From Synechococcus sp. A18-25c (GTDB taxonomy: Bacteria; Cyanobacteriota; Cyanobacteriia; PCC-6307; Cyanobiaceae), in contig NZ_CP047957.1 of assembly GCF_014280035.1 (NCBI RefSeq), forward strand, positions 1,860,001 through 1,924,000: a stretch of DNA of 64,000 nt, written 5' to 3'. Shown here one piece after another: positions 21,842 to 37,659 of the stretch; the stretch's first letter is position 1; each line of letters starts with the position of its first letter. The notes beneath the pieces were generated by a model. It was not told the DNA's origin, did no database searches, and saw only the letters and a program-made list of their open reading frames with translations. The translations under genes and the position numbers were made by a program.

Positions 21842-22282
21842 GATGTCGGCGAATTCTTGTCAATCCATTTCTAATCGAGGTGAGGCCTGAACGGACGAGA
21901 CCCTTGCATATCGCCACCCATCCGTTCATCAGCCATCACTCCAGCTGGCGAAGCAACACCCAGCTGGATCAAGCCGACACCGTTGACCGACAATCAGTGA
22001 CTGCAACGCCAGCCCATGATCGTTGCGACGGTCAACCCATCGCAAATCGCAACTGAACGAAAACAAGAACACATTCAGCACCAACATAGAGGCTCCAAAG
22101 CTGAAGGCATTAAATTTTGACTTTGCAATCGTGAGCCAATAGACCGGAGTAATTAAAGTTCAAATCACCATCGAGGAGTCGTCTACGCATTGTCGAGCGT
22201 GGTACGTGTTCGGGGGGACATGCCTTAAAGGTGGCGGGACAACGTCACTAGTGCTGAGCACAAGGATGCATCACTCGTGCAT
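21842..22282. other. Gene-free stretch
   Basis: I see no credible reading frame, tRNA or strong hairpin in these 440 bases. The sequence is moderately A/T-rich in its right half. Confidence 0.5.
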
Positions 22283-22651
22283 TTAGATCGCCCCTGGACG
22301 AGGCAACAACTCCCATTCGCCTTCGTCTTTCACTGCCTGGGCACACGTTTTATAGAACTCTGAATAATCCTCACCATCCTGATGCTCATCCCAACGATCC
22401 ATAATCACCGTCCAATTATTGCGATCACTTTCTGCATCTTGATATTTAATGGAAACAATGGATTCGACAAATTCTTGCTTGGTTATAGTGCCATTGACGT
22501 AGTGAATACAATTTGTAAAAGCACGAGCCTTATCGTATCCATAGGAATACCCGGCATCCCAACCTTCTTCATAAGCCACCTTTTGTGAATGGGCATTGAC
22601 AGGCAGTACAACGAAGCTTGTTGCAGCAAAAAAACTCAAAAGTTGACGCAT
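22283..22651 (-). CDS. Exported hypothetical protein
   Basis: The 122-residue product begins MRQLLSFFAATSFVVLPVNA, a good Sec signal peptide with a likely cut after NAHS or NA. The mature part has aromatic and acidic character (YEEGWDAGYSYGYDKARAFT; WDEHQDGEDYSEFYKTCAQA) and two cysteines that could form a disulfide. The open frame extends to 22771, but the upstream 40 residues disrupt the signal peptide, so I chose the ATG at 22651. No family is recognised. Confidence 0.6.
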   Translation of the reverse strand: MRQLLSFFAATSFVVLPVNAHSQKVAYEEGWDAGYSYGYDKARAFTNCIHYVNGTITKQEFVESIVSIKYQDAESDRNNWTVIMDRWDEHQDGEDYSEFYKTCAQAVKDEGEWELLPRPGAI

Positions 22652-23442
22652 TGATTGTGTTCGAACGAAGAACAAGACAGCCTGGTCGGATGATAGCCAA
22701 AGACCTGCGATTATTTTGAACAAAGCAAACAAGGCTGGCGACGCTGAACGTGCACGGCTGGCTTGCATCAATCAGTCAACTGCGAAACGAGGGACAACTC
22801 ATGAAACAAGCGTCTTTGAGCCATCGGACTTGGTCCAATCCATTCCGGTGACACAACGCCTGGGACGCGCCATCAAGAACGGACATTGCCATCGCGGTAG
22901 AGGCTGATCCAAACATTGAGTGATGAGAGAGATAGGGATTGGATGAGTCGTCGATCGGGAGAGAAGGTCACGATCAGACTTAACTGAAGAGATGCACTCG
23001 ATGGTGCGAAAGGATGGTGCCGACGTCCAACACAAGCCTCTCAGACCTTGAAAACGGGATGCTGACGATCAAGCGACATCCACTGCTGACACTGAGAATC
23101 TGGATTGATGGAATGATCTCTTGATCATTCGATCAGTGCCCTCTTGATCCCTCAACGCAAGCCCCGATTGAAGGGAGAGCGCCAAATGAGTGCGACTGGC
23201 AAAAGATCTCAGCAAGGGCAGAGGCTAGAGAATGGCTCTGGAGGGCTCGGAGAGTTCAGAACAATGCTAAAAAAGCTGGCCATGGGCAAAATCAACATCG
23301 TTTCGTTTGATTAGTTTTATACTTTTTAGCTTGCAAATTCTATCAAAATTTTATGTTGTACAACTATTTTCTAGCTAAGATATGTTCACGAGTCAATTTT
23401 TTGACCCTCGCTATCCTGCCAAATTTTTTTAGGACTGAAGCA
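22652..23442. other. Long intergenic stretch, A/T-rich at the right end
   Basis: There is no well-supported gene. A 42-codon frame (ATG 23186 to stop 23314), preceded by a purine-rich AAGGGAGAG, is the only candidate and I rate it low. The last 130 bases are strongly A/T-rich and probably hold the promoter of the DJ-1-like gene. Confidence 0.4.
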
Positions 23443-24432
23443 ATGTCACCCAAATCAGCCAGGAGAAAAAGACCGTCATTCAAAAGAACTGTCCACGCGC
23501 ATTCGCCAACAGCAGCTGAAGAGATCGTTGCGCTTGATGCACTTGTCAACGCCTCCGGGATGCACAGTGAACACTTCGACGTTCATTACCATGAAGGAAA
23601 ATGGTCTGCATTTGCCAAGCATGACGGTCTTCATCTCGCCGAGGTATTCACAAATATTGAAGAGGACAAATCAAATCAATTCACTATTCATTGCGATCCT
23701 CACGCATTGAATCACCTCGACGGTCGACTCGACGATGTCGAGCCAGACCCAGAGCTGATGGCTCGAAAGCCGCTGGATGGCTTGAAAGTCTATGTGCTCA
23801 TGGAAAGTCAGTTTGTTCCCCAGGAAATCGATCTTTATGAGCACAGATTCGCCCAATATGGGGCAACTGTGGAACTTGTTTCCCATTTGTGGGGGACAAA
23901 AAGCCTGTGCTTTCACAGTCATTATGATCAAGGCCTGATCCCAAAGATCAGGCACGCAGTCGTTCACATTGATATCTCTGAAGTTGATATAAATTCTCCA
24001 GAAACAGCCGCTGTTATTGCACCAATCGACGTGCACCAACGCCTTTTGTATGATCCTAATATCGTTGCTTCGAAGGATCCCGTGAAGGCAGCACGCTCGG
24101 CTCCTGCTGTCGATTTAATGAAGAGAGCACTTGAACAGCCAAAAGTTGTTGTAGGGGCTTTTGGTCATGGTGTTGAACTTCTTTCCCCTCTGACAGACCT
24201 GATTAAGGACGCTGCCATCACCGCGAGTCCTGGAAGTTTATGTGCTCTTTGTAATGCTGGAGCTCAATGGTCTCCACCAGAGAACCCTGACGAGTGGGCT
24301 ACACATGTCGTCAAACAGATTTCCACAAAACACCACAAAAATTTAAATTTAATCACTGGCACTTCTGTATTGTCAGGGGGCGTACAGGCCTTTGTTGACG
24401 AAATGACGCGCTTTATCATTGAGATTAGATGA
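23443..24432 (+). CDS. DJ-1/PfpI-like (class I glutamine amidotransferase fold) protein
   Basis: This protein of about 329 residues has a polar, basic N-terminus, a first domain of about 100 residues (ALVNASGMHSEHFDVHYHEG), and a second domain from about residue 110. The second domain reads LDGLKVYVLMESQFVPQEID, YEHRFAQYGATVELVSHLWG and KVVVGAFGHGVELLSPLTDL, which resembles the DJ-1/PfpI fold. The nucleophile-elbow Cys of that family is not obvious (GAFGHGVE in its place), so it may be a non-catalytic relative. The start at 23443 follows an A/T-rich leader; the open frame extends 30 codons further upstream. Confidence 0.55.
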   Translation: MSPKSARRKRPSFKRTVHAHSPTAAEEIVALDALVNASGMHSEHFDVHYHEGKWSAFAKHDGLHLAEVFTNIEEDKSNQFTIHCDPHALNHLDGRLDDVEPDPELMARKPLDGLKVYVLMESQFVPQEIDLYEHRFAQYGATVELVSHLWGTKSLCFHSHYDQGLIPKIRHAVVHIDISEVDINSPETAAVIAPIDVHQRLLYDPNIVASKDPVKAARSAPAVDLMKRALEQPKVVVGAFGHGVELLSPLTDLIKDAAITASPGSLCALCNAGAQWSPPENPDEWATHVVKQISTKHHKNLNLITGTSVLSGGVQAFVDEMTRFIIEIR

Positions 24433-24471
24433 AGTACCGCTGGTGATTTAATTTAAGAACTATTCCCCATG

Positions 24472-25233
24472 TCAATCAATACATTCTCCATTTAACATTT
24501 TAGACTTTGGCAATCCACACACGCGCTTACATTTTGGTTGGTGGTGAAGGATGTGTCTTGCGATCAGCGTGCCTGCAACAGCTCCCGTCAAGGGACCAAC
24601 AAGATAAACAAATAAATTCGTGTAATTACCAGAGTAGACCGCAGGTCCGATGCTGCGAGCAGGATTAACGCTTGTACCTGTTAGAGGCGCCACCAACGGA
24701 ACAAAGATCATTAAATAAATCAACACTGCCAAACCGGTGTATCGAGATCTGTCATGACAAGCCGTCATCCAGAAAATCATGATGATCAAGATCATGACTA
24801 GCAAAGCTTCAAGGAGAATCGCAACACCAGACGAAATACCTTCGGCAACACTAGTCACTCCATGGCCGACTGATGATGACAAAGTTGGCAACATCATGGC
24901 GACAATCCACGTCCCAGCCAAAGAACCCAAGCATTGACTTGCGATATAAGGAGCCAGCTTTTTTGTTTCTATTTTTCCTTGCATCCAAAATGCAATCGTT
25001 AGAGCTGGATTTAAATGTCCACCACTGGTTTGGCCAAGTGCAGAGTAAACAACAACCACAACACCGAGGCCAAAGCCAGCACCCGCCAATGCAAGGCGAA
25101 CTGTTTCATTGGGGATTAATGAAGCGAGATATGCCTGCTCTCCAAAATTAAGACTGACCGCTGAAATCCCAGCAATCATCAAGATTGCAGTACCGAAAAA
25201 CTCAGACGCGTATGCCTTAAGGTCCTCAGTCAT
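24472..25233 (-). CDS. Aquaporin / major intrinsic protein family channel
   Basis: The 253-residue inner-membrane channel has both half-helix NPA motifs, GGHLNPALT near residue 72 and GTSVNPARS near residue 187, in two repeats of three helices, which is diagnostic of the MIP family. The Arg after the second NPA, part of the selectivity filter, is present. Whether it passes water, glycerol or another small neutral solute cannot be read. A short Cys- and Lys-rich tail follows the last helix. It is convergent with the DJ-1-like gene, with 40 nt between the stops. Confidence 0.9.
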   Translation of the reverse strand: MTEDLKAYASEFFGTAILMIAGISAVSLNFGEQAYLASLIPNETVRLALAGAGFGLGVVVVVYSALGQTSGGHLNPALTIAFWMQGKIETKKLAPYIASQCLGSLAGTWIVAMMLPTLSSSVGHGVTSVAEGISSGVAILLEALLVMILIIMIFWMTACHDRSRYTGLAVLIYLMIFVPLVAPLTGTSVNPARSIGPAVYSGNYTNLFVYLVGPLTGAVAGTLIARHILHHQPKCKRVCGLPKSKMLNGECID

Positions 25234-25695
25234 ACTGAAGTCATTCTTGGTTGATCTTCAACCTATCAATTCTGGATTCATTCGTCGACCTTTTTGTGTG
25301 TTCGGCATCAAGGAGCCGTGTATCAAGAGTCATCATGTGTTTTCACTTGCCAATTCGATCCCACTCCTCACTTGATGGTGACGCGTTAATGGATGAGTTC
25401 TGTTGCAGCACAGTGCTTCTCCCTGTTCTAAATCAGTGCAAGAGAAGGGTCCGAACAACAGTTACAGCATCGAGATAATTCAGGGCGTAGCAGAAAAAAC
25501 GTGATCAAGAAAAAGCTCTAGGGGCCAGATCGTCGACTATTGGGTTCTCCAACCAAAGCAAATCCATAAAGCCAAAGAAACCAGCATTGTCGAGCAAACC
25601 ATGAGAGGCGCCACCAGAGCAGTCGCTACTCAATCAGCAGGGTGCTGAACGGTTGCCGTATCGCAGCTACTACGGAGTGACGTGCAGTTCCCCAA
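25234..25695. other. Gene-free stretch before the broken precursor
   Basis: I see no gene here. A minus-strand frame of about 26 codons with one hydrophobic stretch (near 25540-25620) is too short to call. From 25641 onward the sequence is a diverged copy of the DNA upstream of 28819. Confidence 0.45.
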
Positions 25696-26145
25696 ATGGC
25701 AACGCTGGACGCATTCAAGGCAATGCATGATGCGGTGCCGAGAGTGTGGAAGGAGAGCTGTTCAAGCTGATGACCTCAGACCCCTGATGCCTCCATTCAG
25801 CGCATGGTGGAGATTTCGACAGAGCAAGGGACGACAGTAACCGCCGATGAGGTGCGTGGGGTCCTCAGACAGATGGATGACGATGACGAATTTGATGATT
25901 TCGAACTCGATGCCTTCGCTCTCGCTGCCATTGCTGATGAGGTTAAGAGTGGGGGCGGGTGCTGACACGAGGAAGCGCATGACAAGCCTCAGGGCGACGA
26001 TGTGGGATGCGATCCATGCGCGAGTGGCTGTTTAGTGGCTCATCCATGACCGTTTGAGTCGTTGAAGCCGACCGTGTCTACAAAAGAGCTGTAGCTCCAC
26101 GCCCTCCATTGTCAGAAGAGCAACTCAAAGCGTTCCTTGAGAAGG
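25641..26145 (+). repeat. Copy 1 of a duplicated precursor-gene segment
   Basis: This segment, from GCTGAACGGTTGCCGTATC through a Nif11-like precursor and its downstream DNA to the first codons of the next precursor (MSEEQLKAF), matches 28763-29275 at high identity with scattered substitutions and small indels. This copy contains the broken precursor gene. It shows that whole gene-plus-spacer units were duplicated. Confidence 0.8.
25696..25965 (+). pseudogene. Broken second-class lanthipeptide precursor (relic of the 28819 type)
   Basis: It starts MATLDAFKAMHDAVP like the intact gene at 28819. It then loses one base near 25741 and gains one base in CCCC near 25785, so the middle is out of frame before DDDDEFDDFELDAFALAAIA returns. 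The double glycine of the leader is also lost (AIADE instead of AIAGG), and the end reads KSGGGC. Both frameshifts and the missing cleavage site mean it is no longer functional. It lies in copy 1 of a duplicated segment. Confidence 0.8.
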
Positions 26146-26387
26146 TCAAAGGCGACACCAGCCTTCAAGACCGACTTAACGCAGCTAAGTCAGCAGAGGA
26201 TGTGGTGTCTATTGGTGAGGGGCACGGTCACGAATTTGGAACCGAGCACATCAGCCGACTCAGTGAAAAGGAGCTTGGAGGTGTATCAGGCGGCACTACG
26301 ATGACAATTGTTACTCCAGTCATTGCTGCAAGCAATGCATTGAAAGCCGCTGGCAGAAATTGCTCACCTTCAGCCTTAATCAAATAA
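26109..26387 (+). CDS. procA: Prochlorosin-type lanthipeptide precursor 1
   Basis: This 92-residue precursor has a Nif11-like leader starting MSEEQLKAFLEKVKGDTSL and ending LGGVSGG at residue 62; the peptidase should cut after GG. The 30-residue core has Thr at 1, 2, 4 and 7, Ser at 13, 24 and 26, and one Cys at 23, so only one thioether ring can form, probably a large one, plus unreacted dehydro residues. It starts with TTG where its paralogues use ATG. The next precursor follows after 4 nt, so the two are probably co-transcribed. The maturation enzymes would be those encoded at 2.3-13 kb. Confidence 0.88.
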   Translation: MSEEQLKAFLEKVKGDTSLQDRLNAAKSAEDVVSIGEGHGHEFGTEHISRLSEKELGGVSGGTTMTIVTPVIAASNALKAAGRNCSPSALIK

Positions 26388-26391
26388 AACC

Positions 26392-26649
26392 ATGTCCCTA
26401 GAGCAACTCAAGGCGTTCCTCGCCAAGATCAAAGTTGATACCAGTCTTCAGGAGAAACTAAAAGCAGCCAAGTCGTCTGATGAAATTGTTTGCATTGCCA
26501 AAGAACATGGTCATGAGTTCACCGCCGACAGAATTACTGAACTCAACATGGATGAGCTAGAAGGCTTGAGCGGAGGAGGCGGTACCAATGCAAAATACAA
26601 TGGGGCCTGTGGAGCGACCCATGGTTTTGGAATCTTTTGCCGAGGGTGA
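26392..26649 (+). CDS. procA: Prochlorosin-type lanthipeptide precursor 2
   Basis: The 85-residue precursor has the leader MSLEQLKAFLAKIKVDTSLQ through LEGLSGG. The 23-residue core (starting GGTNAKYNGAC) has Thr at 3 and 14 and Cys at 11 and 21. The simplest product has two non-overlapping methyllanthionine rings (3-11 and 14-21), though ring order must be measured. The core is rich in Gly and aromatic residues and shares nothing with precursor 1, although the two leaders are close. It forms a two-gene unit with precursor 1. Confidence 0.9.
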   Translation: MSLEQLKAFLAKIKVDTSLQEKLKAAKSSDEIVCIAKEHGHEFTADRITELNMDELEGLSGGGGTNAKYNGACGATHGFGIFCRG

Positions 26650-26810
26650 AGTCGAACAAAGTCAAATAAAATCTAAATTTTCCGGCTTGTCGGGTGGTTT
26701 TTATTTCTTCAGCACCACCATTAAGACTGGAATGCTCCCATTAACAGTCACTATCAATTGTCTGTCAGCCACTGCGCATCCACCAGATCTGAGCAGAAAT
26801 CAGGCTTACG

Positions 26811-27290
26811 TTAGAAACCTAATGCCTTATTTGGTAGGGGACAACCAGCAAATAATTGGCCGTCAAATGCCATTGCATCATCCTCTTGAAAATAATCAGC
26901 CATCGCTTGAGGTCCACCTTCTAGAAGCTCAATAAGCTTTGAGAAAGTTTTATCCGCCTCAGGAGTGGGGTTTTCAAGGCCATAGTTTTTGTAGAGCGTG
27001 CGATAAGCCTCTGGCAATTCAGACTCAGCAAAGAATCCCTTCTTATAGAGATCACATGCAGCCCCTAGTCGCGGTAGCCAAACCATCATTGCGAAGGCCA
27101 CTGCAACTTGTTCGAAAGCCTCCTGTTCAAGAACCTCTTCTTCCAACGCATCTTGCACAGACGCCGTTTCAGCTGAAACGCTAAATGGCGATGCAATCGA
27201 AACAAAGCTGGAAATCGCTAATGCAGCAGTGATGCTGAGGCAAAGACGGTTGAGAGGGACCAAGGCTCCAATCCAGACATCGAGGGTCAT
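26811..27290 (-). CDS. Exported hypothetical protein within the precursor array
   Basis: This 159-residue product on the opposite strand to the precursors has an N-terminal signal-like segment (LCLSITAALAISSFVSIASP) and then an acidic region (VQDALEEEVLEQEAFEQVAV). The C-terminal half is soluble and helical, with two Cys (RLGAACDLYKKGFF, LFAGCPLPNK) that could form a disulfide. I chose the ATG at 27290. Its location between precursor genes and a phage relic suggests accessory cargo; the function is unknown. Confidence 0.55.
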   Translation of the reverse strand: MTLDVWIGALVPLNRLCLSITAALAISSFVSIASPFSVSAETASVQDALEEEVLEQEAFEQVAVAFAMMVWLPRLGAACDLYKKGFFAESELPEAYRTLYKNYGLENPTPEADKTFSKLIELLEGGPQAMADYFQEDDAMAFDGQLFAGCPLPNKALGF

Positions 27291-27350
27291 GCCAATGATG
27301 ACAGCGCTCACAGTCTTTGAGAACGGTGTGAGACACCAAGTCAATCAACG

Positions 27351-28694
27351 TTGATCCACGCAATAACGCCGGTCTCAAAGTATTCCAAGTCAAAACGGAA
27401 ATGGCGGCTGAGTAACGGCGGCACTATCAGGCTGATCCACATGGATGCTGGCGATGCGTTCAACAAGATCCAGGGTGAAGACCTGAGCCATATCTTCTGG
27501 GATGAACTGGGTCAGGAAGCTGATCCGCAGGTGGTGCTCAGGGCTCGTTCATCGATGAGAACGACCGATCCGACGGTGGTGCCGAAGTTCATCGCGACAG
27601 CTAACCCGCTGGGACCTGGCAGCTGGTGGATCAGGGATTATCTGGTCACCAAGGCGATGCCAAACCGCATTTTTAATTGTGAGTTCTTTGGTGCGCAGCC
27701 TGCGGTTTGGGTGAAATCGACGCTCAGAGACAACCCTTATCTGAGCAATCCTGATCAGTACGAGCAGGAGCTACGCGCCAGCTGCTTTGGCGATGAATCA
27801 AAGATTGCGGCTGAGGTTCTGGGTGAATGGGGTCAGATCACTGCAGGATTCTTTGGCTCATGCCTGAGTGTTGAGCGATCGATGCTGCCTGGTGATTTTG
27901 AGATCCCGTGGTATCCGGACAAGAGCGGAAGTTTTACCGAGAAGACCAAAGCTCATTGGTGTTGGATCGGTGGCGACTGGGGCACGGCAAGCCCTGCCTG
28001 CGTCGTGTTGATGTGTCAGATCCAAGAGCCAATGATGATCGGAGAGGTCCATATCGCCAGGGGCAGTTGGGTGTGTGTGGACGAAGAGTATGTGTGTTCA
28101 GTGCAGCCTGATGGATCAAAAGAGTGGAATAGGGGTGATCGAAGTTTGACGGCACCACAGTTTGTAGAACGCGTGAAGAAGCTCTACATGCGCAATGGTT
28201 TTACGAATTGGGTGATTCCGCATCGCAGAGTGATCATGGATTCAGCGGTTACAGCACAGCTGGGTTTTGGCGGTCACTCCGATCCAGTGACGTTGAGCAC
28301 GGAGTTCAAGAAGTATGGATGGCAGGTGACGGGTTCACCGAAGAGCAGCCGTGCGGTGGGATGGCAGCTGATGAAATCACTGCTGTATCAAGCAGGCAGT
28401 GAAGAGCCTGGTTTGTATATCTCTGAGCGATGCGAGAGCTTGTGGGCGACGTTGCCTTATTGCATCAGTGATGATCGCAATCCTGAGGACATGGAGAAAT
28501 CAGCGCCAGACCATAGTGCTGATGCAGTGAGGTATGTATTGACTGCAGCGAATCAAGGTCAGCACAGCTATCGGCAATCACAGCGAAGCGCAGCGCATCC
28601 GTTGATGTGGGCGAAGGATGAAACTCCTAGACGGTATATCGGTGGAGTGAGGACGTATGGAAGTTTGCAGAGTAGGCAACTGAATAGGCGTTAG
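27351..28694 (+). CDS. Phage terminase large subunit, 5'-truncated
   Basis: This 447-residue frame has the back half of a terminase ATPase (IQGEDLSHIFWDELGQE as Walker B, then KFIATANPLGPGSWW as the coupling motif). A nuclease domain of RNase H fold follows, with three acidic positions: GGDWGTASP, IMDSAVTAQL and APDHSADAVRYVL. The Walker A part, about 100-150 residues in complete proteins, is missing, and the apparent TTG start is arbitrary. Without the P-loop it cannot package DNA as a motor, though the nuclease domain looks intact. No other phage gene is next to it. It is a relic or a captured nuclease half between precursor genes. Confidence 0.82.
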   Translation: MIHAITPVSKYSKSKRKWRLSNGGTIRLIHMDAGDAFNKIQGEDLSHIFWDELGQEADPQVVLRARSSMRTTDPTVVPKFIATANPLGPGSWWIRDYLVTKAMPNRIFNCEFFGAQPAVWVKSTLRDNPYLSNPDQYEQELRASCFGDESKIAAEVLGEWGQITAGFFGSCLSVERSMLPGDFEIPWYPDKSGSFTEKTKAHWCWIGGDWGTASPACVVLMCQIQEPMMIGEVHIARGSWVCVDEEYVCSVQPDGSKEWNRGDRSLTAPQFVERVKKLYMRNGFTNWVIPHRRVIMDSAVTAQLGFGGHSDPVTLSTEFKKYGWQVTGSPKSSRAVGWQLMKSLLYQAGSEEPGLYISERCESLWATLPYCISDDRNPEDMEKSAPDHSADAVRYVLTAANQGQHSYRQSQRSAAHPLMWAKDETPRRYIGGVRTYGSLQSRQLNRR

Positions 28695-28771
28695 CAGATT
28701 GCGGATCTAAGGCATTCATTCGAACTGGTGGTGTTGAACACCACTGTCCCGGTTCGATCCGGGTGGCTGAA
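28691..28771 (+). tRNA. tRNA-like relic, class II (Ser/Leu type), degenerate
   Basis: The order of parts is tRNA-like: a 7-nt acceptor strand TTAGCAG that pairs at six positions (two wobbles) with TGGCTGA at the 3' end; a D-arm-like TGC..GCA with CTAAGG; a long variable arm GTGGTG..CACCAC; and a T arm CCCGG..CCGGG around TTCGAT. The T loop is one base short and I find no clean anticodon stem, so it is probably dead. It begins inside the terminase stop codon, which suggests a phage or integrative-element origin. Confidence 0.35.
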
Positions 28772-29275
28772 CTGTTGCCGTATCAGGGCTACAACGGAGT
28801 CACGCTGCAGATCCGCTGATGGCAACGCTGGAAGAGTTCAAGGCAATGCGTGATGCGGTGCCGATGAGTGTGCAGGGTGAGCTTTTCAAGCTGATGACTG
28901 CCGACCCTGATGCCTCGATCCAGCGCATGGTGGAGATCGCTGCAGAGAAGGGGATGACGGTGACCGCCGATGAGGTGCGTGGCTTCCTCAGGCAGATGGA
29001 TGACGATGACGAGTTTGATGATTTCGAGCTGGATGCGGTTGCCCTCGCTGCCATTGCTGGTGGCGGGGAATTTTCAAGTGCAGGGCAAAATTGCTGACTG
29101 CTACTACATGACGAGCCATGGGGGCGTTGCCCTGGCATGCGACCCATGCGCAAGAGGCTCTTTGGTGGCTCATCGATGACCGTTTGAGTCGTTGAAGCCG
29201 ATCGTGACTATCAAAAGGCTGTAGCTCCACGCACTCTCATGTCAGAAGAACAGCTCAAGGCTTTTATCGCCAAAG
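28763..29275 (+). repeat. Copy 2 of the duplicated precursor-gene segment
   Basis: This copy matches 25641-26145. The precursor inside is intact and its double glycine is preserved. The match continues through the spacer (GACCGTTTGAGTCGTTGAAG) and CTGTAGCTCCACGC into the leader of the following precursor, where it merges with general leader similarity. Confidence 0.8.
28819..29097 (+). CDS. Second-class Nif11-like lanthipeptide precursor
   Basis: The 92-residue product has a leader unlike the other precursors: MATLEEFKAMRDAVPMSVQG, then IQRMVEIAAEKGMTVTADEV, an acidic tract RQMDDDDEFDDFELDA and ALAAIAGG. The expected core is GEFSSAGQNC, with Ser at 4 and 5 and Cys at 10, allowing one lanthionine. 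The helix-rich region and double glycine fit the Nif11 leader superfamily, but the Asp run before the cleavage site is special. The DNA upstream carries the tRNA-like relic. A broken sister copy lies at 25696. Confidence 0.75.
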   Translation: MATLEEFKAMRDAVPMSVQGELFKLMTADPDASIQRMVEIAAEKGMTVTADEVRGFLRQMDDDDEFDDFELDAVALAAIAGGGEFSSAGQNC

Positions 29276-29478
29276 CGAAGAATGATCAGTCCATTCAGGA
29301 GAAACTCAAAGCAGCGAAATCACCCGAAGATGTTGTAGGCATCGCTAAAGAACATGGTCATGAATTCACCGCTGATAAGATCAACCAGCTCAGTAATGAA
29401 GAGCTGGAAGGCGTGGCTGGGGGCGGAACGTGTCTGACGAAGTGGCAGCAGGGGCTTCAATCCTGTCTAGGAATGTAA
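29239..29478 (+). CDS. procA: Prochlorosin-type lanthipeptide precursor 3
   Basis: This 79-residue precursor has the leader MSEEQLKAFIAKAKNDQSIQ through LEGVAGG and the core GTCLTKWQQGLQSCLGM. Thr at 2 and 5, Ser at 13 and Cys at 3 and 14 could give two rings, for example 5-14 and one with Cys 3, or an overlapping pair. Cys 3 stands next to Thr 2, so its ring partner is not obvious. Two hairpin terminators follow at 29526 and 29589. Confidence 0.9.
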   Translation: MSEEQLKAFIAKAKNDQSIQEKLKAAKSPEDVVGIAKEHGHEFTADKINQLSNEELEGVAGGGTCLTKWQQGLQSCLGM

Positions 29479-29525
29479 TGTAACTCCTGGGTAGCTAAAC
29501 GGCTGCTGAGGTAGCCTACACACTC

Positions 29526-29553
29526 AAAGCCCCTGCAACCGCAGGGGCTTTTT
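29526..29553 (+). terminator. Terminator after precursor 3
   Basis: AAGCCCCTGC and GCAGGGGCTT form a 10-bp stem with an AACC loop, followed by a T run. Confidence 0.8.
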
Positions 29554-29588
29554 ATTTCATCAATCACCCTCCAATACCTGGCACCATC

Positions 29589-29612
29589 GCCCGCACTTAG
29601 CGGGCTTTCTTG
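29589..29612 (+). terminator. Second, tandem terminator-like hairpin
   Basis: GCCCGC and GCGGGC pair around ACTTA, followed by TTTCTT. It lies 36 nt after the first terminator and is repeated in the cassette at 30757. Confidence 0.65.
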
Positions 29613-29673
29613 ATTGCTTGCAGACATCGCTGCCGACCGTTGCTATGACCAGGCTGTAGCTCTATGCGCTCCA

Positions 29674-29829
29674 ATGTCAGAAGAGCAACCCAAGAAGCAG
29701 GAAGTCAAGGAAGAGCCAGCTAAGCAAGAGCTGTTAAAGGAAGAGTTGAATGAAGATGAGTTAAACGGTATTGCCGGAGGTGTTGTTGCCAACGGTCTAA
29801 TTACTCCAATCCTTCCAAATCCTGGATAA
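29674..29829 (+). CDS. Miniature precursor-like gene without cysteine
   Basis: The 51-residue product keeps the start MSEEQ and the end LNEDELNGIAGG of the precursor leaders. The Nif11 middle is replaced by a Lys/Glu-rich low-complexity stretch (PKKQEVKEEPAKQELLKEE). The predicted core, VVANGLITPILPNPG, has one Thr and no Cys, so no lanthionine ring is possible within it. It may be a decayed precursor or a peptide exported unmodified. It is preceded by the usual precursor upstream region and followed after 5 nt by a lipoprotein gene. Confidence 0.65.
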   Translation: MSEEQPKKQEVKEEPAKQELLKEELNEDELNGIAGGVVANGLITPILPNPG

Positions 29830-29834
29830 TCCTT

Positions 29835-30299
29835 ATGTCTAAAACCACAGTTCTTGCATTGGGAGGAGCACTACTCCTATTCACTGGTTGTGCCACTGTT
29901 ACAAAAGCGCCACCACAGGCAGAGTTCTCGTCCTTGGCAGCGGAACCTGAACCTGTAGTGGAGGAGGAGGTAGTAGCACCAGACACCACGATAAAGGGTT
30001 CGTTTGTCAATGTCACTTATTTGTTAGATGCTCCACCTAAAACGACGACGGGTGAGGCAACTTGGAACCCAGACACCAACACCGTCACTTATTACGACCA
30101 GTTTACGGAAGGCAACTACAAGGGATACATATCCAACTACCAGTGCCAAGGACGTTTCCATTTTGAGATAAAGAATGGCACACCCAAAAAGACTTGGTTG
30201 GCGTGTGACACTAAGATGGTGGATGGTAAACCAGTCAGCACCACCGTCACTTACCCAGAAGATGGTTTCTTCTCATCTAAAGTCACCTTCAAGTTCTAA
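29835..30299 (+). CDS. Lipoprotein of unknown function inside the precursor array
   Basis: The 154-residue product starts MSKTTVLALGGALLLFTGCA, a signal peptide with lipobox LFTGC (lipidated Cys at 19). It continues with an acidic linker (EPEPVVEEEVVAPDT) and a beta-rich domain of about 100 residues with two Cys (YQCQGRFHFEI, WLACDTKM). It would be attached to a membrane on the periplasmic side. It begins 5 nt after the miniature precursor and lies before another precursor, so linked expression is likely. No family is recognised; a self-protection role is only a guess from position. Confidence 0.7.
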   Translation: MSKTTVLALGGALLLFTGCATVTKAPPQAEFSSLAAEPEPVVEEEVVAPDTTIKGSFVNVTYLLDAPPKTTTGEATWNPDTNTVTYYDQFTEGNYKGYISNYQCQGRFHFEIKNGTPKKTWLACDTKMVDGKPVSTTVTYPEDGFFSSKVTFKF

Positions 30300-30347
30300 T
30301 TCCCAACGGGTGTTGAACCACACGCTCCAAGCAATGTTCGGTTTCTA

Positions 30348-30605
30348 ATGTCAGAAGAGCAGCTCAAAGCATTTCTAGAAAAGGTCAAAGGCGACACAAG
30401 CCTTGAGGAAAAGCTTCAAGCAGCTGCTGATGCCAATGCTGTTGCTGAGATTGCGAAAGAAGCTGGGTTTGATCTCTCGGCTGATTGCTTGAAAAAGGCT
30501 CAATCAGATATTGAAGACGCAGAGTTGGAAGGCGCGGCTGGGGGCTGGCTGGGGACTTTGGGAGGGATCCTTGCTAAAGGAGGCTGGGGTCTCTTGCTTT
30601 GTTGA
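30348..30605 (+). CDS. procA: Prochlorosin-type lanthipeptide precursor 4
   Basis: This 85-residue precursor has the leader MSEEQLKAFLEKVKGDTSLE through ELEGAAGG. The core WLGTLGGILAKGGWGLLLC is very hydrophobic and Gly-rich. Its only Thr (4) and only Cys (19, the last residue) would close a single 16-residue methyllanthionine macrocycle. Such a peptide could insert into membranes, but that is inference. A cassette with two terminators follows. Confidence 0.9.
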   Translation: MSEEQLKAFLEKVKGDTSLEEKLQAAADANAVAEIAKEAGFDLSADCLKKAQSDIEDAELEGAAGGWLGTLGGILAKGGWGLLLC

Positions 30606-30672
30606 GGATGGACTTGAGGACTTTTGGATGTTTGATGCGATAGCTAGCACTCAGAGCAGCACCTACACACTC

Positions 30673-30700
30673 AAAGCCCCTGCATTGACAGGGGTTTTTT
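30673..30700 (+). terminator. Terminator after precursor 4
   Basis: CCCCTG and CAGGGG pair around CATTGA, followed by TTTTTT. Confidence 0.8.
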
Positions 30701-30756
30701 ATTGCTTCAATCGTCTGACTAACCCCTTCAATCAGCTTTCAATACCTGGCACCATC

Positions 30757-30779
30757 GCCCGCACTTAGCGGGCTTTTTA
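30757..30779 (+). terminator. Second tandem terminator in cassette copy 2
   Basis: GCCCGC and GCGGGC pair around ACTTA, followed by TTTTT. Confidence 0.7.
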
Positions 30780-30840
30780 ATTAGATACAGACACCGCTGC
30801 CAACCGTTGCTATGACCAGGCCGTAGCTCCACACCTTCCA

Positions 30841-31068
30841 ATGTCAGAAGAGCAACTAAAAGCCTTCTTAGAGAAGGTCAAAGTCGACACCAGCCTGCAG
30901 GAGAAGCTCAAAGCAGAAGGAGCTGATGTTGTTGCTATTGCAAAGGCTGCAGGGTTTTCGATCACCACAGAAGACCTAAACTCTCATAGACAAGGGGTTT
31001 GTGATGATGAGCTTGAGGGTGCGGCTGGGGGTACCTTTTGTTGGCCTGGTCCTGTGGGGTCCTGGTAG
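30841..31068 (+). CDS. procA: Prochlorosin-type lanthipeptide precursor 5
   Basis: This 75-residue precursor has the leader MSEEQLKAFLEKVKVDTSLQ through ELEGAAGG, with a leader a few residues shorter than its sisters around residue 26. The core TFCWPGPVGSW has Thr 1 and Cys 3, which would give an unusually small Thr-x-Cys ring right at the cut site, plus Ser 10 that could stay dehydrated. The rest is Trp, Pro and Gly. A terminator follows 12 nt after the stop. Confidence 0.9.
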   Translation: MSEEQLKAFLEKVKVDTSLQEKLKAEGADVVAIAKAAGFSITTEDLNSHRQGVCDDELEGAAGGTFCWPGPVGSW

Positions 31069-31157
31069 CCTACACACCCAAAGCCCCTGCATTGACAGGG
31101 GTTTTTTATTGCTTCAATCGTCTGACTAACCCCTTCAATCAGCTTTCAATACCTGGC
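31065..31157 (+). repeat. Intergenic cassette, truncated copy 3
   Basis: This repeats the first part of copy 2 (30660-30753) but breaks off after CAATACCTGGCA, before the second hairpin and the promoter part. No precursor follows. Confidence 0.8.
31080..31107 (+). terminator. Terminator after precursor 5
   Basis: It has the same CCCCTG-CATTGA-CAGGGG hairpin and T run as at 30673. Confidence 0.8.
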
Positions 31158-31362
31158 ATAGATAAGGGCAGTTGAGTCAAAGTAGATAAAACGCATTCGC
31201 TAAAATTAGGGTGTCAATTAGGGACATTGCAGCCCGTAAATCATGACACCAAATCAGATTCAATGATTGAATCGTGCTTGCAAGATGGCAGGCATTGATT
31301 CAATCAAGATCAGTCCATCATCCGATCAACTCTCTCCGCTTAGCAATGACACCGGCAATGAT

Positions 31363-31387
31363 AAAACCCCGCCATTCCTGACGGGGT
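31363..31387 (-). terminator. Terminator for the minus-strand gene at 31408-32094
   Basis: On the minus strand CCCCGTC and GGCGGGG pair around AGGAAT and are followed by TTTTAT. It lies about 20 nt after the stop codon. Confidence 0.75.
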
Positions 31388-31407
31388 GATGAAGTGCTTG
31401 TATTGCT

Positions 31408-32094
31408 TCAGAAGTCGATGCCACCAGGGCCGGTGCTGCCGGTAACTTTATTCACGACATCGAAGATTGATGAATCCAGATCAGCAGCTTCAGCATCGTT
31501 CATGCCGCCAGCATCAAGACCCCGCACAAGGTTAACTGGCTCGATGACAAAGCGATTGTCGCTTCTTAGGTCAGTTGTTTGTAATTCGACCTTGACGTCG
31601 CCGAGCTTTATAAAGCCATCCACATCCTCATCGACATATGCATTGGTCTTGCTGGCGGCCTTTGCTGTCAGGTAATTCGAACCAGGACCACCATTAGCTG
31701 CAGTCCAGTCAATGTTCTCCTTAACGCCGATCTCCACATCGTTTGAATCAAAGTCCCCAATCATTCGATCTTCAAAGGATGTGGCACTGCCATTTGTCCA
31801 GACATTCATTGGACGATCTTCACCGGTCAAGGAGTCACCGCCACGACTTGGCTTGAAGTGGTTATCTCCCACGATGACACTGGCTTTGGCCTCAATGTCT
31901 TGAGGGTTGAAGACACCTTCACCACTGATGGGTCCCAACAGCTGCCCATCGGGTCCTTCGATAAAGGTTTGGCCGTCGCGTTGAACGAGAGAGAGAGGTC
32001 CGCTGACAGCAAGTCCGAGAGCATCAGCTCCGATGGCTTCGGGGGCTGGTGCAAATTCACCCTTGATGTCGCCGATCTTGACGAAAGCAGCCAT
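31408..32094 (-). CDS. Hypothetical protein with a duplicated VKIGDIKGE-like motif
   Basis: The 228-residue product begins MAAFVKIGDIKGEFAPAPEA, and a related stretch, GFIKLGDVKVELQTT, recurs near residue 160. The motif resembles the first strand of Hcp-type tube proteins (ylKidGikGE), but the rest does not let me claim that family. The protein is acidic, Gly/Asp-rich and free of membrane segments or a signal peptide. I chose the ATG at 32094; the open frame extends 16 codons further. A hairpin terminator follows on this strand. It could be a self-assembling or surface protein, but that is inference. Confidence 0.65.
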   Translation of the reverse strand: MAAFVKIGDIKGEFAPAPEAIGADALGLAVSGPLSLVQRDGQTFIEGPDGQLLGPISGEGVFNPQDIEAKASVIVGDNHFKPSRGGDSLTGEDRPMNVWTNGSATSFEDRMIGDFDSNDVEIGVKENIDWTAANGGPGSNYLTAKAASKTNAYVDEDVDGFIKLGDVKVELQTTDLRSDNRFVIEPVNLVRGLDAGGMNDAEAADLDSSIFDVVNKVTGSTGPGGIDF

Positions 32095-32204
32095 TGGTTT
32101 ATAGGCGGTGGAGGGTTGTTCGATTGTTCCCTCTCGATGCACACACCCTCTCCGCCATCAACGACCCAAGTGATGACCCAAGTCATCTGTAGCTGTGATG
32201 TTGG

Positions 32205-32456
32205 TCACAGAGCCTCAGAGCCACTGCCATTGCTGGGGCTTAAAGGCTTATACCCCATCCAGCCAACCATCCGATCCGCTTCCTCATCGCTCAGAAGTGG
32301 CAACAGGAAGTCCCATGTCAGCTCATCCACCGTCTCATGGCCATGCTCATCAAGGCAAAGGCTGAGCAGATGCTTGAACGCACCGGCGTCGTTCAATCGC
32401 AAGGCCAGGAGCAGTTCGGTGAGCAGCGTGACGGTGGTCAGGGTCTCGGGGGACAT
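32205..32456 (-). CDS. Small hypothetical protein
   Basis: The 83-residue acidic, helical product reads MSPETLTTVTLLTELLLALR, then GAFKHLLSLCLDEHGHETVD, then FLLPLLSDEEADRMVGWMGY. There is no signal peptide. The organised amphipathic pattern argues for a real soluble protein. It lies upstream of, and in the same direction as, the gene at 31408. No family is recognised. Confidence 0.5.
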   Translation of the reverse strand: MSPETLTTVTLLTELLLALRLNDAGAFKHLLSLCLDEHGHETVDELTWDFLLPLLSDEEADRMVGWMGYKPLSPSNGSGSEAL

Positions 32457-32518
32457 GGGTTGGTTGCAGCTGCCCAGAGTGTTCTCCTCTGATTTGGGTT
32501 AACGGAACGCTCGTTATG

Positions 32519-32872
32519 TCAACGACAAAACGTCCCGGTTGTTACGAGCGTCTGCGTATCCGTGTCCCCTTGGATTGCAGCGAAAACTTCTCCGGTTCGA
32601 CGATCAAGGCTTTGGTGGATAGAAATGTCGGCCTCTCCATCGATAGTGACCACCCAGCTCCAGAGTCCGTCTTTAAATGTGGCCGGGCTGTTGTCCCTGG
32701 AACCGTCGGCATCCCAAATTTGGGTGATTCGACCATTCACTTCGTCGATATACAAAGTCGAATTGGCATACTCGACCTGAGGGTTTTCGCAGCGAAGCTT
32801 CAACTTCACGGCGTTGGCGGGACTAACAACAGTTGCAAGCACCGCTGCTGTGAGAACAGCAATTGACCTCAT
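32519..32872 (-). CDS. Exported hypothetical protein
   Basis: The 117-residue product starts MRSIAVLTAAVLATVVSPANA, a textbook Sec signal peptide with a cut after ANA. The mature part of about 96 residues is beta-rich, with two Cys (KLRCENPQVEY and the penultimate residue of TGTFCR) placed to form a disulfide linking the two ends. It should be periplasmic. The plus-strand frame over the same bases is a shadow. No family is recognised. Confidence 0.65.
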   Translation of the reverse strand: MRSIAVLTAAVLATVVSPANAVKLKLRCENPQVEYANSTLYIDEVNGRITQIWDADGSRDNSPATFKDGLWSWVVTIDGEADISIHQSLDRRTGEVFAAIQGDTDTQTLVTTGTFCR

Positions 32873-33070
32873 AGCTCTGGGACAGACGTGAATGAGTCAA
32901 CTACATCTGTCGTTGAAAAGACCAGCGCGGTGTTCGCCGATCCGGCGGAATTTAATCCTGGAGTCCGTACGGACGGATTTAGAGCAAGCGGCAGTGCAAA
33001 ACGCTTGAGCCAGTGCCTTTTTGCACTTAGCTATGCACTACTTGGAGTGTTCCACAGGCTTGAAACCTAA

Positions 33071-33143
33071 TGGAGCCAAGGAGACTCGAACTCCTGACCC
33101 CCTGCATGCCATGCAGGTGCTCTACCAGCTGAGCTATGGCCCC
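33071..33143 (-). tRNA. tRNA-Ala (anticodon GGC)
   Basis: The minus strand folds into a complete cloverleaf: acceptor GGGGCCA/TGGCTCC, D arm with AGCTCAGCTGGTAGAGC, anticodon stem CCTGC/GCAGG around ATGGCAT (anticodon GGC, alanine), and T arm CAGGAGTTCGAGTCTCC. No CCA is encoded. It marks the right border of the A/T-richer island, the kind of place where integrative elements often insert. Confidence 0.95.
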
Positions 33144-33220
33144 ATGAACGCGGTTGAAGCATTTGGCTTCGCCGTCGTCATGTGGAAGCTTACAACGACG
33201 CTGTCCCATGGGCCCAGCAA

Positions 33221-33844
33221 TCACATCTGCCGCCAAACGGCAGCCAGCTTGCCCTGCACCTGCACCTGATCAGCAGGCAGCTCAATCGGCTCATAAGCGG
33301 GGTTGGCGGCCTCCAAACGAACAGTCACACCATCACAGTGAAAATGCTTCAAGGTGGTGCCGCTCCCCGGGACCAGAGCACTCACAATTGTTCCCTGACG
33401 GAGGCGCCCGGCATCTGTCACCGGCTCCATCAACACCACATCCCCATCCGCGATGTGAGCATCCACCATGGAATCCCCATTTACGGTAAGGGCAAAGAGC
33501 CCGCGGGTTTCGAGCACCGGTCCAAGGTCAAGACGCTCCTGAACATCGTCAAAAGCCTCAACAAGTCCACCTGCGGCAACGGCCCCAAGCACGGGGATCC
33601 CTGACGTGATGCCGCCAAGAAGCTGAAGGGTGCGGGCCTGACCTTCCTGCCAAGTGATCCAGCCCTTCTGCTGAAGGTGACGCAAACGACTTTGCACCGG
33701 CGCAGGGGAACGAAGCCCCATGGCCTGCATCATCTGGCGAATGGAGGGGCTGTGGTGATGACTGCCGATGTAATCAGCAAGCCAGTCGTAAAGCTCTTGC
33801 TGAGCAGTCGTGAGGGGCTCGGGAGATCCAGAAGGCACCGGCAA
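33221..33844 (-). CDS. lexA: LexA repressor
   Basis: This 207-residue protein has an N-terminal winged-helix DNA-binding domain (SPSIRQMMQAMGLRSPAPVQ) and a C-terminal S24 autoprotease. The cut site is A91-G92 in GAVAAGGLVEAF; the catalytic pair is S125 in NGDSMVDAH and K165 in TTLKHF. All key residues are present, so RecA-stimulated self-cleavage is expected. The start is TTG. A near-consensus SOS box lies 15 nt upstream, which suggests autoregulation. Confidence 0.95.
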   Translation of the reverse strand: MPVPSGSPEPLTTAQQELYDWLADYIGSHHHSPSIRQMMQAMGLRSPAPVQSRLRHLQQKGWITWQEGQARTLQLLGGITSGIPVLGAVAAGGLVEAFDDVQERLDLGPVLETRGLFALTVNGDSMVDAHIADGDVVLMEPVTDAGRLRQGTIVSALVPGSGTTLKHFHCDGVTVRLEAANPAYEPIELPADQVQVQGKLAAVWRQM

Positions 33845-33858
33845 TGCATTTGTTCTTC

Positions 33859-33872
33859 AATACATATGTACC
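33859..33872 (-). promoter_or_regulatory. LexA (SOS) box upstream of lexA
   Basis: On the minus strand GGTACATATGTATT fits the cyanobacterial SOS pattern RGTACNNNDGTWC with one mismatch (T for the last C). Its place just before the lexA start supports autorepression. Confidence 0.6.
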
Positions 33873-33906
33873 GATGTTTCTTCGCGATGGCAAGAGCCCA
33901 GCCCGC

Positions 33907-34332
33907 TCAGGGAACGTCACAGATCCAAGCCACCTTCAAGGCAGTGTCATCGCGACCGACGTAATCCAGCCACTGGTTGTCACTCGAGCGGCGCTGGAGC
34001 CTCTGCTGATTACATAGAGCCCGCATGGTCAGCTCCCGCACCTGCCAGTCTTCAGAGCCATTTCGGCGAAGCAACAAAGCGGCTTTGAACTCCACACCCG
34101 CAGTGGTACGGGTGCGATCACTGAGATATTCACCAGCCATCACCGCTGGGGTTTCCAGAGCTTCCATGAACTGCCAAGGACGATCCGTCATCGCTCCAGA
34201 GGCTTGAAGCTGCTGGCGGGTCTGCGACCAGAGGGCGGGTTCCGGACCTGGAGACCAGCCTTCAGCTGCGGCAGGAATGGCGGCGAAACAACCGGCCAAC
34301 GCCAACACAGTGGAGCGGACCGCTGCGCTCAT
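33907..34332 (-). CDS. Exported hypothetical protein
   Basis: The 141-residue product begins MSAAVRSTVLALAGCFAAIP and continues AAAEG, a signal peptide; a lipobox-like AGC is present but poorly placed. The mature part is soluble, with WSQTRQQLQASGAM, AGVEFKAALLLRRNGSEDWQ and two Cys (MRALCNQQRL, VAWICDVP). Its start overlaps the stop of the preceding gene (ATGA at 34329-34332), so it is the third gene of a small coupled set. No family is recognised. Confidence 0.65.
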   Translation of the reverse strand: MSAAVRSTVLALAGCFAAIPAAAEGWSPGPEPALWSQTRQQLQASGAMTDRPWQFMEALETPAVMAGEYLSDRTRTTAGVEFKAALLLRRNGSEDWQVRELTMRALCNQQRLQRRSSDNQWLDYVGRDDTALKVAWICDVP

Positions 34333-34586
34333 TCTTCTGTCTCCGCTTGCGGGTTAGCGGAACGTTGCTTGATCAGCTCCGCCAGCATTTTTAACTTGGC
34401 ATTTTCAGATTCTGATGCTCGGGTTGCCATCCAAGAGCTGGCCACTTTCATTTGACCCAGCTGCTGTAACAACGACAGGGCCGTCTCCCTGAGCGTTTCG
34501 ATGTCGTCGCATTCACGGATGAAGCGCGACAATTTCTCCGCTTCAAATGATTGCTCCAGTCCGCGCTGGAGTGGATCAAGACTCAT
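34329..34586 (-). CDS. Small soluble helical protein
   Basis: The 85-residue product begins MSLDPLQRGLEQSFEAEKLS and is fully helical and charged, with FIRECDDIETLRETALSLLQQ and ENAKLKMLAELIKQRSA. It resembles small cyanobacteria-restricted proteins of unknown role. I chose the ATG at 34586 because its overlap with the upstream stop (TCATGA) is typical coupling. It also overlaps the downstream exported protein gene. Confidence 0.7.
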   Translation of the reverse strand: MSLDPLQRGLEQSFEAEKLSRFIRECDDIETLRETALSLLQQLGQMKVASSWMATRASESENAKLKMLAELIKQRSANPQAETEE

Positions 34587-34729
34587 GATTTTGACTCCCA
34601 CTCGAGCATGGGGTCAGGGTCTCCATTGCAGATGGCCCGAGCACGCACATAAAACGCACTCTCGGTATCGCCAGCAGCTTCAAGAGAGTCGAGCACTCTC
34701 TGCCAGTTGTCACGTTCCTGCTGGTCCAT
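34583..34729 (-). CDS. 48-residue acidic microprotein
   Basis: ATG at 34729 opens MDQQERDNWQRVLDSLEAAG, followed by DTESAFYVRARAICNGDPDP and a short acidic end. The stop overlaps the start of the next gene by 4 nt, so the three genes 34729 to 33907 form one coupled unit. The amphipathic helix and the coupling support a real gene. The function is unknown. Confidence 0.6.
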   Translation of the reverse strand: MDQQERDNWQRVLDSLEAAGDTESAFYVRARAICNGDPDPMLEWESKS

Positions 34730-34754
34730 TCATCCATAACCATTGGTGAAGACC

Positions 34755-35498
34755 TTAGAGGCGTTCCAAAAAGGTCAGCGTCTGATCGGCCACCAACCGC
34801 CATTGCGCATCAGCCGTAATCACATGACCGCTGTTCTCAAGCCAGTGAAGGTCAACACGCCTAGAACCCGTACGACGCTTGAGCCATTCCACCCCCCGCT
34901 CTGTGATCACGCGATCCTTGCGGCTGGCTACCACCAGCAGCGGTTGCTGCAATTCCGCCAGCTGACGTCGCGTCGCCCCGATCAATCCCAGCACACGCAC
35001 GCTGCAACGACTGGGCCAGCGCCCATAGGTCCAGATGCGCTCAGCGGTCGCTGGATCCACAAAGTCTTCGGCCGGACGCGCCACCGAAGAAAACACCCGT
35101 GCCAACAGTGGCGCGATCAACGCCCGCGGATCGCCACTGATGATCGGAGGCGAATAAGCCATCACCGCTTCAACCTCAGGATGGCGCAGGCCTGCCTGTA
35201 GAGCCAGGATGGAGCCCAACGAAAGGCCAGCAACTACCACCCTCTGGCCCTGATTGCGCAGACGAAGCACCAGAGCATCAATCTGCTCCAACCATTGGCG
35301 GGGTTCGATCTCCATCAAGTCTTCAAGCCGGGTGCCATGGCCGGCCAACAAGGGCGCTTCCACCCCAAACCCCCCAGCATTCAGCGCTCGAGCGAGCAAG
35401 CGCAGTTCAGCAGGCGACCCAGTGAATCCGTGCAACAAAACCACGGTCACTGGACCTCCTGACAAAGCGAAAGGATCCGGAGAAGCGGGGCTCTTCAC
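34755..35498 (-). CDS. Alpha/beta hydrolase (carboxylesterase-like)
   Basis: The 247-residue cytoplasmic enzyme has the oxyanion region VVLLHGFTGSPAELRLLARAL, the nucleophile elbow GLSLGSILAL with its Ser, an Asp in VVASRKDRVITERG and a His in NSGHVITAD, completing the triad. The pattern is close to carboxylesterases of the Est30 type and to monoacylglycerol lipases. The substrate is unknown. The start is GTG. It is the upstream neighbour of the coupled three-gene unit on the same strand. Confidence 0.85.
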   Translation of the reverse strand: MKSPASPDPFALSGGPVTVVLLHGFTGSPAELRLLARALNAGGFGVEAPLLAGHGTRLEDLMEIEPRQWLEQIDALVLRLRNQGQRVVVAGLSLGSILALQAGLRHPEVEAVMAYSPPIISGDPRALIAPLLARVFSSVARPAEDFVDPATAERIWTYGRWPSRCSVRVLGLIGATRRQLAELQQPLLVVASRKDRVITERGVEWLKRRTGSRRVDLHWLENSGHVITADAQWRLVADQTLTFLERL

Positions 35499-37214: not shown

Positions 37215-37223
37215 GGCCTCTGA

Positions 37224-37592: not shown

Positions 37593-37659
37593 TTGAGGTC
37601 ATCCCCTGCTTCTCGTGAGTGGATTGCTACAAGCAAGGTGACCAACGCGGCATTGGCCC

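Follow-up and report, generated by a model that had tools for sequence, protein, structure and literature searches.

A prochlorosin precursor array in Synechococcus sp. A18-25c and sequence mosaics that point to exchange of core-bearing gene segments

How one enzyme system came by hundreds of unrelated prochlorosin cores is an open question. A 64,000-nucleotide stretch of the Synechococcus sp. A18-25c genome (the window; positions 1860001-1924000 of the 2.51 Mb source genome, G000) harbors an array of prochlorosin-type precursor genes at 26109-31068 of the window. A conserved leader joined to a variable core has already been described for prochlorosins and synechococsins, the function of prochlorosins being unknown (PMC10783134). 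From its sequence the array can be assigned to the known kind of prochlorosin (ProcA/SyncA) locus. The best explanation of the whole, which we consider probable, is such an array combined with exchange of 3' gene segments by recombination. Mosaic sequences, one of which involves G000, point to exchange of this kind between species; for the window's own genes it is inferred.

Conserved leaders, unrelated cores and the modification locus

Leaders were identified with the NCBIfam model TIGR03798 (leader_Nif11; curated cut-off 32.3 bits). Five open reading frames (ORFs) within 26109-31068 exceed the cut-off, which bears out the array reported in the initial annotation of this DNA. A sixth, A7, lies outside it; neither A7 nor the low-scoring A4 had been listed before.

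26109-26387, + strand: A1, ProcA-type precursor with a TTG start; TIGR03798 70.2 bits
26392-26649, + strand: A2, ProcA-type precursor, 4 nt 3' of A1; 73.1 bits
29239-29478, + strand: A3, ProcA-type precursor followed by a terminator-like stem; 83.2 bits
29674-29829, + strand: A4, short leader-like ORF with a GG end; 13.0 bits, below cut-off
30348-30605, + strand: A5, ProcA-type precursor; 77.7 bits
30841-31068, + strand: A6, ProcA-type precursor; 85.4 bits
37660-37893, + strand: A7, ProcA-type precursor beyond the array; 80.3 bits

The leaders end in GG in A1, A2, A3, A5 and A6 and in CG in A7, where ACG stands in place of GG. They had been described as nearly identical, which overstates their likeness: amino acid identity is 47-69% among the five array members and 42-69% among all six full precursors, and conservation is found mainly in an N-terminal stretch and in the D/EELEGxxGG end. 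The cores of the five do differ as claimed, in length (11 to 30 amino acids, aa) and in cysteine number (1 or 2). They are TTMTIVTPVIAASNALKAAGRNCSPSALIK in A1 (30 aa, 1 Cys), GGTNAKYNGACGATHGFGIFCRG in A2 (23 aa, 2 Cys), GTCLTKWQQGLQSCLGM in A3 (17 aa, 2 Cys), WLGTLGGILAKGGWGLLLC in A5 (19 aa, hydrophobic, 1 Thr, 1 Cys) and TFCWPGPVGSW in A6 (11 aa, 1 Cys); A7 carries IWLSCICYDTA. Thr4 is the sole Ser/Thr of A5, so a Thr4-Cys19 ring of 16 residues is possible, in agreement with the single ring proposed for this core. For A6 a mini-ring at the first residue had been proposed; the Thr1-x-Cys3 motif is present, and Ser10 offers an alternative partner. The core of A4, VVANGLITPILPNPG, is without Cys, and A4 is perhaps a decayed or unmodified relative of the other precursors.

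The same separation of leader and core is seen throughout the genome. Among 37 precursors of G000 (49 less 12 with incomplete leaders; 666 pairs), leaders have a mean pairwise nucleotide identity of 0.69 and cores one of 0.385, while shuffled cores come to 0.377. The cores of this genome thus resemble each other no more than shuffled sequence. Even in a pair with 96% identical leaders, core identity is 0.53, against a shuffled 95th percentile of 0.51. In the 32 of these 37 that were selected for a GG end, residue identity is 1.00 at both glycines and 0.05-0.09 over core positions 1-12, so the abrupt change at GG that had been noted holds.

The modification and export genes, absent from the initial annotation, lie in the same window:

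2320-5700, - strand: ProcM-like LanM, 1126 aa, containing HLCCG; TIGR03897 737.9 bits (cut-off 304)
5697-7841, - strand: second ABC transporter, NHLM ABC2-like; TIGR03797 532.6 bits, under the cut-off of 709.4
7838-10051, - strand: C39-peptidase ABC exporter, NHLM ABC1-like, with a C39 domain; TIGR03796 700.8 bits, under the equivalog cut-off of 853.3
10048-12989, - strand: HlyD-like and TolC-like secretion proteins; matches below cut-off

The frames of LanM and exporter are open in the window, and relatives of LanM were detected in 12 of the 31 genomes of the genus, G000 included. The marks of prochlorosins recur here. A Nif11-type leader is present in A1, A2, A3, A5, A6 and A7, with the MSEEQL start and D/EELExxxGG end of prochlorosins and synechococsins (ProcA/SyncA, paired with ProcM/SyncM); a double-glycine leader end is found here and, as GG, in 401 of the 431 precursors of the extended set described below; hypervariable cores with Ser/Thr and Cys occur in all but the Cys-free A4; and the genome encodes a ProcM-like LanM with the CCG zinc motif, a mark of ProcM (PMC10783134). 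The arrangement in small scattered clusters together with a LanM-transporter locus is likewise shared (PMC10783134). The array differs from prochlorosins and synechococsins in that nothing related to the cores of A2, A3, A5 and A6 turned up within the sets compared, and in that a phage terminase fragment and a second leader family (B) interrupt it. All six full precursors belong by score to the Nif11-like leader family (TIGR03798), whereas the B family remains unmatched by hmmscan. Other class II lanthipeptides also occur as tandem precursor arrays with leader/core organization and cleavage at GG. In contrast to those, the one LanM match in G000 would serve tens of scattered, unrelated cores; TIGR03798 has 53 matches in this genome at E<=0.001.

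By analogy with known systems, the ProcM-like LanM would bind each Nif11-type leader, dehydrate Ser/Thr of whichever core is attached and then join Cys into thioether rings. The C39-peptidase transporter would cleave after GG and export the product.

Shared 3' segments in precursors of different species

Relatives of the cores were sought in two sets. The first comprised 173 precursors of 11 genomes (14,706 core pairs after one of the 173 cores, shorter than 8 aa, was dropped), and 24 core pairs scored at least 40, compared with 2 among shuffled cores. The extended set comprised 431 full-length precursors of 13 genomes, left after removal of hits whose leaders were incomplete or that ran off the end of a locus. 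It is a partial set, as not every listed place was included; one genome, G008, contributed 150 scored candidates of 276. Its number of precursors and its two LanM genes fit the account of strain BIOS-E4-1 in PMC10783134, so G008 may be that strain. Comparison of its 424 cores of 8-80 aa (7 of the 431 fell outside this range; 89,676 pairs) gave 57 pairs scoring at least 50, compared with 1 among shuffled cores. These pairs form 39 families, 31 of which contain a cross-species pair.

Two of the six window cores had relatives in the first set, A1 in G016 and G025 (score 65) and A7 in G023 (score 49). In the extended set A1 was the only one of the six in a pair of at least 50, with A7 barely below. 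A7 has a syntenic ortholog in G023 (core NWSSCICQDTA), both genes adjoining argF. For the cores of A2, A3, A5 and A6, the first set offered no relative that rose above background, and the extended set none at a score of at least 50. Within the comparisons made, the core sequences of the array are new.

Because pairs were selected for similar cores, the core itself is biased; the comparison was therefore made on the final 69 nt of the leader, a stretch that had no part in the selection. Across the 31 families the proportion of synonymous differences (pS) was 0.22 in these 69 nt and 0.42 in the first 108 nt of the leader, and 24 families had the lower value in the 3' leader (Wilcoxon p=0.0003). 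Random cross-genome pairs show the reverse, the 3' leader being less similar than the 5' leader (0.61 vs 0.70 nucleotide identity). MaxChi analysis of the leader alone detected a drop of divergence towards the core in 8/31 families and 4/300 random pairs (Fisher 9e-7), and a rise in 1/31 families and 81/300 random pairs. With leader and core together, a drop at p<=0.01 was found in 14 of the 31.

A family was taken as a mosaic when MaxChi gave a drop at p<=0.01 and the partner, judged by its 5' leader, came no higher than 11th among 430. Ten of the 31 families are mosaics in this sense (F00, F05, F08, F10, F12, F17, F18, F19, F29 and F34), with breakpoints at 0, -34, -63, -72, -84, -84, -107, -114, -138 and -162 nt from the core start. 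Their shared tracts extend over 81 nt to more than 500 nt, one reaching the end of the stretch examined, and are 86-99% identical, compared with 60-78% in the left flanks. In eight of the ten the tract takes in the 3' leader: the last 70 nt of the leader are 94-100% identical, the first 100 nt 74-87%. In F00 and F08 it amounts to hardly more than the core; F00 pairs a precursor of G000 at 792 kb, outside the window, with one of G023. Identity over the 60 nt upstream of the gene is at most 0.60 in eight of the ten mosaics, the mean of random pairs being 0.52.

For housekeeping genes (lexA, two neighbours, and argF where found), pS lies between 0.26 and 0.45 over the species pairs measured. For the nine of ten mosaics in which it was measured it is 0.26-0.39, whereas 3' leader and core together give 0.00-0.14 in eight of the ten. 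When 24 families are pooled, the 5' leader has a pS of 0.38, and the 3' leader together with the core one of 0.14; this set was filtered on core nucleotide identity of at least 0.85 and is hence biased, and the 31-family test above repeats the comparison without the filter.

These mosaics point to interspecies exchange. The exchanged segment would be the 3' portion of the gene, made up of the core, in many cases the 3' leader as well, and a length of DNA beyond the gene; recombination within or at the edge of the leader would transfer it, and indels and substitutions would change cores alongside. The cores would then be unrelated in part because the 3' portion can be exchanged. Earlier, diversification had been placed in the core alone. 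The step at GG supports this; the shared tracts, which start in the leader or at its edge in 10/31 families, do not.

Horizontal transfer has already been proposed in print, and what is added here is evidence at the level of tracts. Horizontal transfer and recombination-related proteins may shape prochlorosin diversity, and an identical core common to two strains has been reported (PMC10783134). In the excerpt of that article no description of leader-starting tracts was found, and recombination is not mentioned in those of PMC11251773 and PMC12328550. No paper containing the motif VALAAIAGG was found.

Divergence in place, gene conversion and constraint on cores

A different account would have the cores diverge in place after duplication, through indels, substitutions and diversifying selection, while the leaders are held by purifying selection and no recombination takes place. 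Cubillos-Ruiz 2017 (PNAS) is said to have favoured this as the main reading. Core change on a near-constant leader, as it predicts, is observed in F09, F11, F14 and F36, and indels are named, together with horizontal transfer, in PMC10783134. It leaves unexplained the families F05, F10, F12, F18 and F34, in which near-identical cores have a pS of about 0 between species and 5' leader pS is 0.3-0.7, as well as breakpoints inside the leader. We regard divergence in place as the sole process as unlikely.

How strongly cores are held once formed was assessed in 14 whole-gene families, defined by a pair in which the partner is among the three best by 5' leader, with an identity of at least 80%. The proportion of nonsynonymous differences (pN) is 0.024 and pS 0.116 in their leaders, compared with 0.046 and 0.130 in their cores, giving pN/pS of 0.21 and 0.36; since these families were picked by core similarity, the figures favour apparent core constraint. 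They indicate that cores are constrained once made, though they change at about twice the leader rate at amino acid sites. The possibility, raised earlier, that cores are conserved at the same rate as leaders is thus borne out as to constraint and not as to rate.

Several observations weigh against exchange of 3' segments. The order of pS is opposite in 7 of the 31 families, and in the A1 family divergence climbs along the gene. In F08, pS of 3' leader plus core is 0.76; in F00 it is 0.27, compared with 0.34 in housekeeping genes, a high value because only the core and a few codons are common to the pair; F21 and F30 likewise show high pS there. Most of the leader falls within the tract in F18 and F29. 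Four more MaxChi-significant families have partners of rank 1-4 by 5' leader, so that simple descent could account for them. The ten mosaic families include no core from the window, the pairs were picked by core similarity, and the families are not mutually independent. Within single genomes, cores as islands between two conserved flanks were unsupported at the thresholds used: in pairs with a 3' leader identity of at least 0.9 and a core identity below 0.6, downstream identity reached 0.75 in 0/12, 0/54 and 0/23 pairs of three genomes. A laxer alignment had hinted at flanked core islands in single pairs, the closest of which had a downstream identity of 0.81.

A further point on this side, that for just 7 of 20 recipient 5' leaders (expectation 3.5) the best match lies within the same genome, also speaks for an alternative in which whole precursor genes pass between species and resident paralogs then overwrite the 5' leader by gene conversion. 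Relatedness extends across the whole gene in F04, F06, F22 and others, as this account requires. On the other side, upstream DNA is near background in eight of the ten mosaics, and residents provide the best match for just a minority of 5' leaders. Whole-gene transfer with conversion, which we consider rather unlikely, also sets the breakpoint within the leader and is thus a variant of the 3'-segment exchange preferred here.

The second leader family and the surroundings of the array

Several further features interrupt the array or lie beside it; the initial annotation had recorded neither the second leader family nor the terminase fragment. One group belongs to the B family:

25696-25965, + strand: broken second B copy with 2 in-frame stops; B match, direct repeats D4/D11/D13
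28819-29097, + strand: B1, second leader family, GG end, core GEFSSAGQNC with C-terminal Cys; no match above cut-off in Pfam or NCBIfam
29104-29190, + strand: conserved stretch separating B genes from A genes; matched 12 times in G000 with an 87-nt query

In Pfam the best match of B1 was DUF1456 (17.9 bits, under the cut-off of 27); NCBIfam gave one weak unrelated row, with TIGR03798 giving no match over its cut-off, and PHROGs none at E<=0.001. Profile comparison of B with Nif11 leaders by hhalign gave a weak similarity (E 3e-5, probability 73, 37 columns). The family has 13 matches in G000 and was found in 12 of the 31 genomes, several of these matches being weak or broken. The 24 full-length B precursors of the fetched loci have a median core length of 8 aa (6-12 aa in 19, 32-37 aa in 5). 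Cys is the last residue in 16 of them, and 8 lack Ser/Thr, so that the Ser/Thr plus Cys expected of a lanthipeptide core is not a property of the family, B1 itself having both. At four places in G000, B1 included, a B gene is followed within about 170 nt by an A gene of the same strand, and at a fifth the distance is about 0.9 kb. The DNA between B and A genes has its 12 matches in G000 at E<=0.001 (one at about 25978-26060) and is present in 5 of the 31 genomes.

ProcM was considered as the general modifier of B and rejected, given the eight cores without Ser/Thr and the B genes of G011, G014 (58% complete) and G029, three genomes in which LanM gave no match at E<=1e-20. A nif11 radical-SAM maturase was rejected as well, because the TIGR04064 cut-off was passed in none of the 31 genomes; matches below cut-off occur in all 31 and likewise in most control genomes. 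The genus-wide searches, which covered LanM, C39 and one radical-SAM model, found no B-modifying enzyme. A second C39-ABC export gene with three length-matched neighbours is present in G029, G022 and G000 (L228:2706-9775, L229:1939-8982 and L230:3859-10770). In G029 it is separated from B genes by about 4 kb, in G022 from B-like genes by about 9 kb, and in G000 no B match was found within 50 kb of it; a link between B and this exporter is therefore just a lead. Selenocysteine insertion or stop read-through in B1 was also rejected: the DNA after the TGA continues in frame into a motif (HDEPWGRCPGMRPMRK) that some relatives keep open, but this DNA stands in other frames behind other B genes, which suggests that it is probably non-coding DNA and no coding extension. 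As RNA, the conserved DNA between B and A folds no better than shuffles (z -0.52), and Rfam searched over 22000-38500 gave a tRNA as the only match above gathering score.

A broader hypothesis joins both leader families. In picocyanobacteria, cores would be openly exchanged between strains and species as leader-anchored cassettes (3' leader, core and 3' flank), and B would perhaps be a separate diversity-generating system of ribosomally synthesized and post-translationally modified peptides (RiPPs) with an unknown modifying enzyme. We put it forward tentatively, leaning slightly towards doubt. If cores do travel as leader-joined cassettes, it is the core, and neither the gene nor the strain, that would be the unit of inheritance, and a single LanM would encounter ready-made new cores. 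The B family, for its part, would broaden the range of leader-guided diverse peptides in these cyanobacteria.

The remaining features describe the site of the array:

26811-27344, - strand: gene that lies between A2 and the terminase fragment, unmatched in Pfam
27351-28694, + strand: gene for a phage terminase large subunit of 447 aa, shortened at the N terminus; relatives compared
29526-29551, + strand: terminator-like stem after A3 (stem scan)
30673-30698, + strand: terminator-like stem after A5 (stem scan)
31080-31105, + strand: terminator-like stem after A6 (stem scan)
33070-33144: tRNA-Ala (GGC)

Precursors and a terminase relative occur within about 20 kb of lexA in G008, G025 and G028. 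The terminase copies by lexA are a fragment in G028 and carry stops within them in G008 and G025; an open copy of 532 aa is found in G028 on a contig other than that of lexA. In G023 the lexA interval holds one partial precursor-like match only, and the distance from lexA to the gene at 22283-22771 is about 6.6 kb, compared with about 10.4 kb in the window. The terminase gene has the appearance of a remnant within a variable island; lanthipeptide genes have been located in genomic islands (PMC7522525). Carriage of the precursors by phages was considered: scans of viral contigs with the terminase and with A6 gave 20 and 52 pattern stretches, respectively, none of which was confirmed as a relative. 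The tRNA-Ala gene adjoins lexA at the border of the variable stretch, and this border is a possible insertion hot spot.

The broken B copy, the shortened terminase, the short A4 and the differences of the site among genomes would also suit a decaying relic, in which most array genes are unexpressed and the cores drift neutrally. Five leaders of the array have open frames and high scores, core pN/pS is 0.36 in the whole-gene families, and the LanM and exporter frames are open in the window, all of which argues against decay and makes this explanation highly improbable.

The 3' flanks of A5 and A6 are 99% alike across 90 nt. Terminator-like stems number 16 in the stretch, compared with 5.2 expected, with no excess of promoter-like sites; the stems behind A3, A5 and A6 suggest that these three genes may be separate short transcripts. 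The gene at 26811-27344 has a relative in G023, which is located elsewhere (L132) and close to another precursor-like gene.

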